The notes below the pieces were generated by a model. That model ran no database searches. It had not been told where the DNA came from and saw nothing but the letters and a program-made list of their open reading frames with translations. A stretch of DNA of 64,000 nt from Cyclina sinensis. Taxonomy: Eukaryota; Mollusca; Bivalvia; Venerida; Veneridae. The stretch is from contig JAAONU010000013.1 in assembly GCA_012932295.1 (NCBI GenBank), positions 8,458,821 through 8,522,820 of the forward strand, written 5' to 3'. Shown in pieces: positions 8,222-22,400 of the stretch. Made by a program: the position numbers and the translations under genes. Position 1 is the stretch's first letter, and every line of letters starts with the position of its first letter.

Positions 8222-10033
8222 AAAATGTAACGATTCGCCACAATAACGATTCGCCACTAACGATTCGCCACAGGTTCATATAACGATTCACCACAGAGTA
8301 ATAACGACTCGCCACAAACAAATAACGATCCACCACAAAGTAATAAAACAAAATAATTTTGTTGTACTTATGTGTTTCATATATATTTGTTTGGTAATTT
8401 GATGAAAAAAATAAATGGAAAAAGAAATTTTGGTTTGTTTTTGCTTCATTATTTAACTTTTCTCCGTGGAGCAATATATTTTGTCTTTAATTATTTTGAT
8501 GAAGCTACTGAAATGTTTAATATATCATTTGTAATGAGGTCATATCCCGGTTTTAACTATTTATTATTTTGTTATCAATTAATTCAATCAAAATTAAACA
8601 TGGTAAATTACTAAAAGACAATAAGAACTCTATGTGAGAAGTTTTATGGAAACTTTGTATTAAACAATCATAAAAGAAAATGTTTATTAAGTGTATGTGT
8701 TCTGTTTTTAATAGGCTTGACAACATCACATAAAAGACACAAGTTTAAAGAACGTTATATAGAAATTTATATATAATATTAATTTTAAGGTTTTCTTATT
8801 AATTAATGCACATATTATTTTAAATTTTGTGTGTGTGATTTTTTTATGATGATGGTGATACTGCTTTCATTTGAAGGGATTAGTTAAGTAAATCAAACAA
8901 ATAACCTTGTCATTTATAAAGGTGTTGATTGGTATTGTTTTTTACTGTACTTTATCTTTATTACTCGTGAAATGTCACGATCATATTTCTATTTGAAAGA
9001 CCCTAAGCTGATTAAATAATCATGCCATTAATATAGGCGCTGATTGGACATTGTTTATTAAATGTGTCATATAACAGTAGTAACGCCCGCAAGGTGTGTT
9101 TTATCAATGACTTAAGATCAAAGCTAATAATTATATATAATTGGTAATCATTTATTTTTTGTTTTGATAATGAACAAAAGAAACCCTATGTACAAGAAAT
9201 ATGGATTGAACGTTTATAAAATTAGTGTTAAATCTATATGATACTTACATTTTACATTATTTTTGTGAACTATGGGGATTTGATAGGGCAGAAAATATAG
9301 AAAGAGGCATAACGTCCGGGGGGGGGGGGGGGGGGGGAATTCAGACCAGTGACCTCTTGCAAAGGTGTTTATATAAACGGGCCAGTTTAAGTGATCTTAA
9401 AAAAGTGAAGTATTTTGTATGAAAAAATGTATATTTACTTCAAAAATGTGTAAAAGTTATATGCAGTAAAGGTAATTAAAAAAAAATATGAATGTAAAAG
9501 TAAAATATTATCAATGCATCGAAGAGTCGACTTTTCCCATTACTTAATAAAGTCAATTGATTGTTCACCTTGCATGTATCTGTGTAGATATGTCATCCAT
9601 CGGTGAGATTCAGGGGTTAAACGTAATCAATTTATGGACATGGACTTTGTCTGCACTAGAAAAAAGAGAGTTTCTTAAAAGATAACTTGCATTTTTCATG
9701 TAAACTAAGAAAACAAAGTAATTCATTTATTTAGTATAAATATATAATACAATTGCACACAACTGTGACAAAGTAAATTGCATATGACACACATCTACAA
9801 ATTCACCAATTTGTAATTATTTTTCAATTTTGAAAAAAAACTGTGATGAATCGTTATAATACTTTGTGGCAAGTCGTTAATTGTTTAAAATGTGTATTCC
9901 TTACACTTTTGAAAACTGTGGCGAATCGTTATTACTTTGTGGCGAATCGTTAACTGACTTGTGGTGAATCGTGAATTTCTGTGGCGAATCGTTATTGAGG
10001 CGAATCGTTACTGTGGCGAATCGTTACATATTC
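8222..10033. mobile_element. Fold-back transposon E1, TAACGATTCGCCACA words
   Basis: The left arm (8222 to about 8345) holds six copies or variants of TAACGATTCGCCACA, and the right arm (about 9845-10033) holds at least eight in inverted orientation (TGTGGCGAATCGTTA). Both outer ends read ATGTAACGATTCGCCACA. The 9-base AGGTTGGGG is present directly outside both ends (8213-8221 and 10034-10042), a target-site duplication. The 1.5-kb middle is AT-rich with no convincing ORF, so the element is non-autonomous. A run of 19 G lies near 9319-9337 and a longer interrupted G run follows the right end. The class is unknown; 9-bp duplications occur with Mutator-like elements. Confidence 0.8.
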
Positions 10034-10042
10034 AGGTTGGGG
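10034..10042. repeat. 9-bp target-site duplication of E1 (right copy)
   Basis: AGGTTGGGG, identical to 8213-8221. Confidence 0.75.
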
Positions 10043-19400: not shown

Positions 19401-22400
19401 ATGGGATTTATTTTCATCAAGTGGTATGAAAATAAATATTTCACGAGTGGCAAAAGCCATGAGTGAAATATGATAATTTTCATACCACGACAAAAAACTT
19501 GAATTTTCTGTTATTTATATAATTTCTCTTTTTTTGACCTTACAGTTCGAAAGAATTCCCCTCTGATTTTGTGTATTGGCTGAATTTAGAAGAACGTAGT
19601 CCGGCAAGACACCAGTGAAAATACGGAAAACTTGTTTCACAATTTAAATGTTTGAAGTAATGTAAAGTGACCTTCGGATTCATTCTTGTGAACTTTCTTA
19701 CCTTGCAGTTGGGGGCATTTGTTCATGAAACAAATGCCTGTGGTTTTTGGTCTAGTATTCATTAACAGATATAATATGAGCGTATGCACAAAGAATGCAT
19801 GAATGTGATCCAGTCATGTGATGGCACACAAAAATATAAAAATTTTACATGTAGGTTTTATACCATTTGTAACCCTATAGCCTATGATGGAGGAATTACG
19901 GACAAAACGGACCATGGACAAAACGGACCAGACAAAACGGACCATCATTGGAGACGAAACGGACCATATCCAGGGACAAAACGGACCATCCAAAAATAAA
20001 TTTTTACTCCAGTTAAATTTATATCAGCTTCCATTATGAGGCGTTTTAGGTGTGTAGTTTAATGCATCTTACAAAAGAAAGTAAAATTGCCATCATACTA
20101 GTATGTATTTTTGGCTTCCATCCTGAGGTGCTGTAGGTGTGTAGAATAATGTCAATAATGCATCATATAAAAGTAAATAGAATTTATAAGTGAACATGGC
20201 CCATACATCGGTACATATGTTAAACTTATATTTTCTTTAATTCGAGTAATGTTAGTATAATAATTTGAAATTAACTGACCGTATTTTTCATCAAAACTGA
20301 TTATATTATATATTAGATAAATGAAGATTTTTTTTAAAAAGAAATTGTAATTTGCTGTTTGTTTTTCTTTTGTTTCCAAATTATATTTAATTACAATTAG
20401 ATGTGTCTAATGTAATTTGTTATTGTCGCAAAATACGTCATAGCTGCACTTAATGCCTAAATGGATAATTAAAATTCGATAGTTAACTGAATTATACAAT
20501 TGAAAAAAAGAATCTTTATCTAGGTGTGAATTCCGACAACTTTAGTTTGTTAACAACTGTCGGTTGTTAATGAGGTGCGAAAACATAATTACTACTTGAC
20601 AAGATTAATTTAATTGCGGTAGCCTTTGAAAATGGTAAAAAAAAATTTTTTTGGATGGCAGGGCTCTACAAATTTCTTTGAGATTGAGTTGTCCAGGACA
20701 ACTGACTATGGCAAAATAGAGTTGTCCCAAAAACAAAGTCAGACGTCTGAGTGAAAAGCATTACATTTTTGATAAGCATTATTTGTTAAATGGGCTTTTC
20801 ATTTTAGAGAGTCAATTTAAAAAAAAAAGATACTATCATAGATCTTTAACAAACACCCCAAACTTTTCAACAGAAATTGAGTCCAACTTAAAAAGACAAT
20901 GACAGGCAGTTAATATATGTGGATTAGTTGTTATTCATCTTATTGTTTTAAACTAGTGTAATTCTGAGATCAAAATTAAGTGATTTTTTGGAGGAATGTC
21001 TGTTTACCTAGGGGTTGTGTTTCCAGTTTCACAAGAATTTTATTTGAACAAGTTACAAACAATTTTTAAGATGTTAAGTATTTTTTTTTATTATAACTGC
21101 TGCTTTCTAAAGTAAAATGCGACAGAAATATTCATGTCTTAGAGAAAATGGAACATTTTTTTGAATGAAAAATGAAAAACTTGTAATTATAATAAAACCA
21201 TGACGCTATATTTTTTAATCACTCAGTTGAATGTTGTAAGTTTGCTTTGTAAAAAGTCTCCAAGACGCTGTTTTCTATCAATATTAAAGTACGGCGGGGT
21301 CGCGGAAATATATGACATACGGAATTTTTCCGAGATTTTCACTCGCTGCTTTATATTTAATGAACTAAATATTAGCTGGAATTGGTTTCCTTCATTTTGT
21401 AAAGCTTGTCTTAAATCTACTTCATTTTTTTCTTATAAATAAACCCGATTTTTAAAACAAAAATGCTAGATTTTTTTGTAGTTCGTTGTCTATAAGCTTA
21501 GACTATCATTGGCAAAGCTTCGATGTTCAGCCTTTTGTCTTTGGAATTAAGCATTCAATGTATTTGTTAAGACATTTATTTGCTTGACTTATTTTAAAGT
21601 CACGCAATACCGACAAAGATTTACAAACAAAATCAATATCCATAGTAAATTGTAACTAGAATCGTGATTGGTTGACCTTTCAGCTCACTACTGTCACCTC
21701 TCTATTAGGGCGGAGCTTATCGAATGCTAATAGGTTAGAAATCGATTGCATAATGTTGTTTATTCAAGTGGGTTATCCGAGTTTTATGACTGTAAAAATT
21801 AGAGTTGTCCGGGACAAAACTTTTGTACACAGTCAGTTGTCCGAGAGCAAGTTTAGAGTTGTCCCGGACGTCGGACTATAGAATTTGTAGAGCCCTGGAT
21901 GGTCCGTTTTGTCCCTGGATATGGTCCGTTTCGTCTCCAATGATGGTCCGTTTTGTCCCCAAAAATGGTCCGTTTTGTCTGGTACGTTTTGTCCATGGTC
22001 CGTTTTGTCCGTCAGGCTGATGGAGAAACTACCCATTTTTTTACAATCACAAAATGTTGCATTTGGCGACAATGCGACAGTAGATTGGGTTTTGATAGAC
22101 ATTATAATCCACACAAATATTTAAAATCAAATTCTTTTTCAATGACCATCCAGGAATGAGTTGCTTTAACTTCAACTTTAAAGGCAGATGAGCATGTTTG
22201 ATGAATGGAACAGATTTGTGAAAAGGGTTAATCATTATTTGAAGCTGAAATATTATTTTACACCCGAAATATTTCAAGCCAATATTTTATGAAAAAAAGA
22301 TATAAAAATGGTGTTTCCTATCCTATGCAACGCGCACAGGTTAGCTATTTTTGTATTTCCCGCGTAAAGCCGGGGTGGTGCTTGGGAATGTCATGTAATG

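Follow-up and report, generated by a model that had tools for sequence, protein, structure and literature searches.

We analysed three foldback elements, here named E1, E2 and E3, that lie in a 64,000-nucleotide stretch of the genome of the bivalve Cyclina sinensis (contig JAAONU010000013.1, positions 8,458,821 to 8,522,820; hereafter, the window). All three have inverted ends made of repeated 14-nucleotide (nt) words, as a preliminary description had stated, and they are very probably non-autonomous members of separate Phantom-like families of Mutator-like elements (MULEs) with FLYWCH-type transposases and foldback ends. A transposase gene located within E1-family ends elsewhere in the genome, at locus L051, identifies E1 as a non-autonomous FLYWCH-MULE of the foldback type, and the membership of E2 and E3 is suggested by their anatomy. 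With these results, what began as an odd impression from the sequence has become a defined set of Mutator families, whose ends are known exactly and number in the hundreds across the genome; one of the families also has a coding partner.

The shared word and its register

The elements and their parts are listed below in window coordinates, with the strand where it applies and word starts counted from the respective end of the element.

8221..10033: E1, non-autonomous foldback element of family F1, 1813 bp
8213..8220: E1 left target duplication, AGGTTGGG; G8221 can be read as a base of the duplication or of the element
8221..8228, + strand: E1 left leader, GAAAATGT, 8 nt; the same leader pair occurs in L016, L024, L049, L050 and L051
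8229..8337, + strand: E1 left word array, starts at 9, 25, 39, 62, 83 and 104
9165..9175, + strand: E1 stretch that represents the empty site of a 6417-bp transposon nested in the sister copy L049
9842..10025, - strand: E1 right word array, starts at 9, 25, 41, 61, 83, 104, 156 and 179
10026..10033, - strand: E1 right leader, GAATATGT
10034..10041: E1 right target duplication, AGGTTGGG
13539..14809: E2, non-autonomous foldback element of family F2, 1271 bp, leaders GGTTTCGA and GGTAGCAA
13530..13538: E2 left target duplication, TGTCCGGAG
13547..13632, + strand: E2 left word array, starts at 9, 25, 50 and 81
13747..14441: E2 internal tandem duplication, 345 bp
14715..14801, - strand: E2 right word array, starts at 9, 59 and 82
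14810..14818: E2 right target duplication, TGTCCGGAG
19893..22017: E3, non-autonomous foldback element of family F3, 2125 bp, leaders GAATTACG and GCCTGACG
19885..19892: E3 left target duplication, TGATGGAG
19901..19988, + strand: E3 left word array, starts at 9, 25, 39, 61 and 83
21900..22009, - strand: E3 right word array, starts at 9, 25, 39, 61, 83 and 105
22018..22025: E3 right target duplication, TGATGGAG

The degenerate word RACRWWWCGSMMCM has 22 exact matches in the window on both strands, and all 22 are situated inside the six arms of E1, E2 and E3, in agreement with the earlier proposal that a single 14-base word is common to the three elements. In the 903-Mb genome, 2044 + 2008 matches were found, versus 912 + 812 for the reversed pattern. 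The words of E1, E2 and E3 agree pairwise at 9, 7 and 8 of the 14 letters. In the comparison with shuffled controls that the preliminary description had proposed, the similarity was striking in the register fixed by the element termini, where 1 of 200000 shuffles equalled the observed value, but weak when phase and strand were left free, where 40 of 1500 letter-shuffled word sets equalled the observed similarity sum. No rotation of the words scored above the anchored register. The anchored similarity is strong because an 8-nt leader precedes each first word and places its start at element nt 9, and since the flanking duplications fix the termini, the word alignment need not be chosen. The alignment originally made without gaps was therefore right, and is now better founded. 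The degenerate word is real, and its similarity among the elements is well beyond chance when it is anchored at the element ends.

The details of the word required some revision. The dinucleotide CG had been regarded as fixed at word positions 8-9; position 9, however, is occupied by G in 42 of 64 E1-family words and by A in the other 22. It had also been suggested that words vary within an element mostly where the elements differ from one another, and position 4 indeed behaves in this way (A142, G38 and C2 in E3-family words; G4 and A3 in E2 words), as do positions 5-6 of E2, whereas position 9 of E1 does not.

The termini were surveyed in 31 complete elements, comprising E1-E3 and 28 genome copies, with 62 arms that all have their first word at nt 9; locus L010, which had no clear duplication in a blind scan of ten elements, was omitted. 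The duplication adjoining the 8-nt leaders was 8/8 bp in 20 of the 31 elements, 7/8 in six and 6/8 in two (L031 and L032, perhaps one copied insertion), a perfect 9-bp duplication was found in two (E2 and L049), and in L015 the duplication was indistinct. The perfect duplications, of 8 bp in 20 elements and of 9 bp in two, are within the 8-11 bp expected of a MULE, and that of L051 is 8/8 bp. The arrangement of a foldback MULE, a short end motif followed by tandem units of 9-15 bp, corresponds to the 8-nt leaders and word arrays of the 62 arms. Perfect duplications of 9 bp had been reported for E1 and E2, and a duplication of 8-9 bp for E3; we recovered 9 bp in E2 (TGTCCGGAG) and 8 bp in E3 (TGATGGAG), but in E1 the preferred reading is the 8-bp AGGTTGGG, and the alternative 9-bp reading, AGGTTGGGG, gives a left leader of 7 nt.

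In all six ends of E1-E3, element nt 9 is the first base of the first word, although the left end of E1 also permits nt 8. All the leaders of these families are 8 nt long, begin with G and are specific to the family and to the end: GAAAATGT/GAATATGT in the E1 family, GAATTACG/GCCTGACG in the E3 family, GGTTTCGA/GGTAGCAA in E2 (from one complete copy), and GAATTAGG/GCTTTAGG in a subfamily with the word GACGATACGGACCA. Two different leaders were located at opposite ends in 20/20 E3-type pairs (one letter off in L033) and in 6/6 of the E1-type elements read.

The spacing of the words is also similar between families. The left array of E1 and the right array of E3 agree within 1 nt at all five later words, a match reached by 99 of 1000000 random ladders under a simple null with gaps uniform between 14 and 31. 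This ladder keeps positions rather than letters, as the mixed G/A at position 9 of the E1 family illustrates. Successive later words are spaced by 22 nt in 82 of 148 gaps of the E3 type and in 39 of the 69 in its ATA subfamily.

Genome copies and the transposase of the E1 family

Ends of the E3 family and its ATA subfamily, defined as leader plus word with up to one mismatch, were found 215 + 197 times genome-wide, and E1-family ends, with up to two mismatches, 137 + 128 times; the reversed controls gave 0 in both searches. Most of the copies read are devoid of a gene of their own. A second E2-like arm was recognized by eye in L025.

The E1-family element L051 is 5585 bp long, has E1-family ends and is flanked on both sides by the duplication GTTATCAT. 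It codes for a transposase in several open segments, assumed to be separated by introns, with a FLYWCH finger (Pfam E-value 1.3e-7, over the cut-off) and MULE-like motifs. When five segments were joined into one protein, 125 homologues were found (E-values up to 0.001); most of the 120 listed contain PF10551, and many also PF04500. The listed homologues are from bivalves, other molluscs, crustaceans, cnidarians and others, the best being from Pinctada (44% over 100%), and the best relatives would point to a mollusc as host. The E1 family is thus associated with a MULE DDE transposase, judging by the L051 gene and its PF10551 homologues, and the combination of an N-terminal FLYWCH zinc finger with a MULE domain that characterizes Phantom was found in the E1 family only, in L051. 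The E1 family has this FLYWCH-MULE gene instead of the P-type transposase of the P superfamily, and the PHD model had no match in the five L051 segments scanned, which may not cover the whole gene. No inverted repeat bracketing the gene was seen when L051 positions 251-1350 were compared with 4281-4960, where the longest exact inverted match was 13 nt, so the gene does not look nested.

A search with one L051 segment gave 59 places, its own locus included. A search for PF10551 gave at least 66 places, without the L051 gene; compared by eye, they are near none of the E1- or E3-type ends in listings of up to 100 places. One transposase, that of L051, was tied to a word; the ends may coevolve with it, as the preliminary description suggested.

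Several further arrangements were observed among the loci. Another foldback family (L018:2973-4487 and L021:3145-4093) has the words GACACTTCGGACCA and GACATTACGGACCA with leaders GAATTACG and of the ATATCAG type; as judged by eye, it joins the E3 leader GAATTACG to another word, and the duplication of L021 is CGTACGAG. In L014 and L027, word matches are found inside other long inverted-repeat elements, and L019 has a different word array. By eye, L033 contains a nested LINE-like gene and L050 (8.1 kb) a nested retroelement. In C11, two E1-type ends with the same leader are 12 kb apart, and were taken as separate copies.

Assignment of E2 and E3 and alternative explanations

The suggestion that E1-E3 belong to one superfamily gains support from the MULE gene of the E1 family, from the common register and the 8-9-bp duplications of the three elements, and from the similar spacing in E1 and E3. 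The search for a full-length copy with a transposase between word-built arms succeeded for the E1 family, but no coding copy of E2 or E3 was found (E2-type ends were not searched genome-wide). This and several other observations weigh against the assignment or the register. The match of an L051 segment to the Pfam MULE model is weak (E-value 0.052, below the cut-off). No match was obtained between the 120 MULE homologues and the fetched E3-type elements (tblastn, E-value up to 1e-3). In locus L054, a related MULE gene and an E3-type right end are about 4.9 kb apart, but no left end was found within 9.35 kb, so that the gene may or may not belong to an E3-type element. The MULE loci L052 and L053 have no words in their 6-kb stretches. 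As regards the register, the start at nt 9 was set by leader-plus-word patterns in the 28 copies and by chosen termini in E1-E3, and only the abutting duplications are independent of that choice. In the blind scan of ten elements, the 8+8 register ranked first only in E2 and L017, tied for first in E3 and was second to 7+8 in E1; in L009, L010, L012, L015, L016 and L024, other or shifted repeats outranked it, so that the register of these six comes from their leaders. As regards spacing, 2 of 60 permuted orders of the E1 gaps also fit the E3 ladder, which makes the match less striking, the left arm of L009 and the right arm of L017 depart from it (9, 23, 45, 67, 89), and E2 fits it poorly, in addition to having a 9-bp duplication.

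Given the lack of words in the 6-kb stretches of L052 and L053, it may be that only one group of MULEs carries them. By eye, these two loci have Ulp1-like protease and PHD-like parts, in open frames of 1043 and 855 aa, and are Rehavkus-like by resemblance only. In L054, the stretch 401-764 beyond the arm is 87-92% similar to the E3-type L031 and L032, in each of which it occurs twice, in both directions; it may be a dispersed repeat.

If E1-E3 are FLYWCH-type MULEs, the words would most likely serve as binding sites of the transposase, which would recognize them through its FLYWCH zinc finger; coding relatives, L051 among them, would provide this protein in trans. The protein may bind the word arrays at both ends and bring the ends together; cleavage would then take place 8 nt outside the first word, followed by joining to the target with a stagger of 8-9 bp. 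The leaders differ between the two ends but the word next to them does not, which suggests that the distance is measured from the first word, and the conservation of the leaders within a family suggests that they are also used.

An alternative view of the arrays is that the words arose mostly by unequal exchange within the arms, and that the transposase recognises the first word only. The number of words indeed varies among arms and copies, as it does in the nematode family Tm1 (PMC3169594) and in derivatives of the mosquito element Muta1 (PMC5225508). However, the frequent 22-nt gaps and the near-equal ladder of E1 show that later words stand at fixed spacing, which suggests a constraint beyond the first word, and we regard this explanation as unlikely.

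It is also rather improbable that E1 alone is a Mutator element, with E2 and/or E3 belonging to another superfamily, their similar foldback ends having arisen independently and the common word being coincidental. Foldback families elsewhere do carry unlike transposases, of the P type in Galileo and of the MULE type in FARE (PMC3169594); the shuffles with free phase and strand and the failure to find a coding copy of E2 or E3 would also agree with separate origins. Such origins are, however, difficult to reconcile with the similarity in the anchored register, with the equal length of the leaders, their initial G, the 8-9-bp duplications and the near-identical ladder of E1 and E3, or with the L021 family, in which the leader of E3 is paired with another word.

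The 971-aa DDE-fold protein encoded in L049 was considered as the transposase of E1 and rejected. This 8.2-kb E1-type copy has the gene between its arms, a 9-bp duplication, and two halves to which E1 aligns at 97.5% and 96.8% (about 97% to both), but the gene sits in a separate nested transposon of another kind (6417 bp, with a TAA duplication and inverted ends of its own, GGCCAAAACAAAATAATA..). E1 itself carries the empty site of that transposon, which refutes the idea and leaves it practically no likelihood. No relatives of this protein were found in scans of genome contigs and viral contigs. Finally, we can virtually discard a reading of the arrays as plain minisatellites or regulatory repeats instead of transposon ends: Tandem Repeats Finder does list them as short arrays, but the many paired inverted copies have family-specific opposite leaders, and their duplications at independent sites refute this.

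Known relatives and other features of the window

NOF (with Drosophila FB) and the sea-urchin TU elements have foldback ends with iterated repeats. Drosophila FB and Galileo resemble E1-E3 in the same respect, a likeness of arrangement. The preliminary description knew of no account of such a superfamily; the kind is, however, described, as the following relatives show.

One relative with the same anatomy is Tm1, a Mutator/Foldback family of root-knot nematodes with a FLYWCH-MULE transposase and many non-coding copies, whose ends consist of asymmetric 7-bp motifs (A1/A2), GGA and 1-9 units, mostly of 14 bp, flanked by duplications of 8-10 bp, mostly 9 (PMC3169594). It resembles E1-E3 in its foldback ends, asymmetric end motifs, units of about 14 nt and duplication size, and the E1 family in its FLYWCH-MULE transposase. 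When the Tm1 consensus was placed by hand, element nt 9-16 read GACGATTC in M. incognita or GACGTTTC in M. hapla, and in both species they fit RACRWWWC in the same register as the window word. This pattern fits 32 of 65536 octamers, about 5 in 10000, and the likeness was noticed after the fact. In contrast, the later half of the Tm1 motif, AGTATCGC, does not fit the window word, the Tm1 units are arranged head to tail, mostly at 14 bp, versus a 16/14/22/22/22 ladder here, and the host is a nematode.

In Aedes aegypti, Muta5 combines an 8-bp terminal motif with nine subterminal repeats of 15 bp, and Muta1, which transposes in yeast, a 10-bp terminal motif with nine repeats of 12 bp; the two have duplications of 8 or 9 bp and hundreds of non-coding derivatives, and such repeats are present in 10 of 12 long-ended Aedes families (PMC5225508). 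The end motif, subterminal repeats and 8-9-bp duplications are shared with E1-E3, a likeness of anatomy. Rehavkus has a 9-bp duplication and a minisatellite before its 3' end, comparable to the repeat arrays near the ends here, but its transposase has a PHD finger (PMC6446971), as opposed to FLYWCH in the five L051 segments scanned.

E1-E3 are therefore new families of a known kind. With respect to the open-licence literature searched, the degenerate word, register and spacing common to several families, and the matching half-word in Tm1, may be new. It is conceivable, although we propose it only tentatively, that animal foldback FLYWCH-MULEs share an old end code, composed of a G-started 8-nt leader, the half-word RACRWWWC from nt 9 on, and binding sites at set distances, which would have been kept from nematodes to this invertebrate, with the other half-word and the leaders diverging by family together with the zinc finger. 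In that case, the families would be a natural experiment for the DNA-recognition rules of FLYWCH fingers. If the half-word and ladder hold in other animals, they would provide a simple signature by which foldback elements that are still unclassified could be annotated, and a system for studying how transposase and ends change together.

Some other features of the window were also observed. An unrelated element is nested in E3:
20659..21897: nested element with inverted ends CAGGGCTCTACAAATT and a GATGG repeat on its flanks

By resemblance only, this element may be hAT-like. By eye, positions 13347-13470 and 43894-44232 resemble exons of a G-protein alpha subunit, in which case E2 would sit in the first intron of the gene. 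Two large tandem arrays are present at 17060-18928 (145-bp unit, 12.9 copies) and 52369-54707 (32-bp unit, 72.9 copies), and a 961-aa open frame at 59113-61998 resembles, by eye, a leucine-rich-repeat membrane protein.

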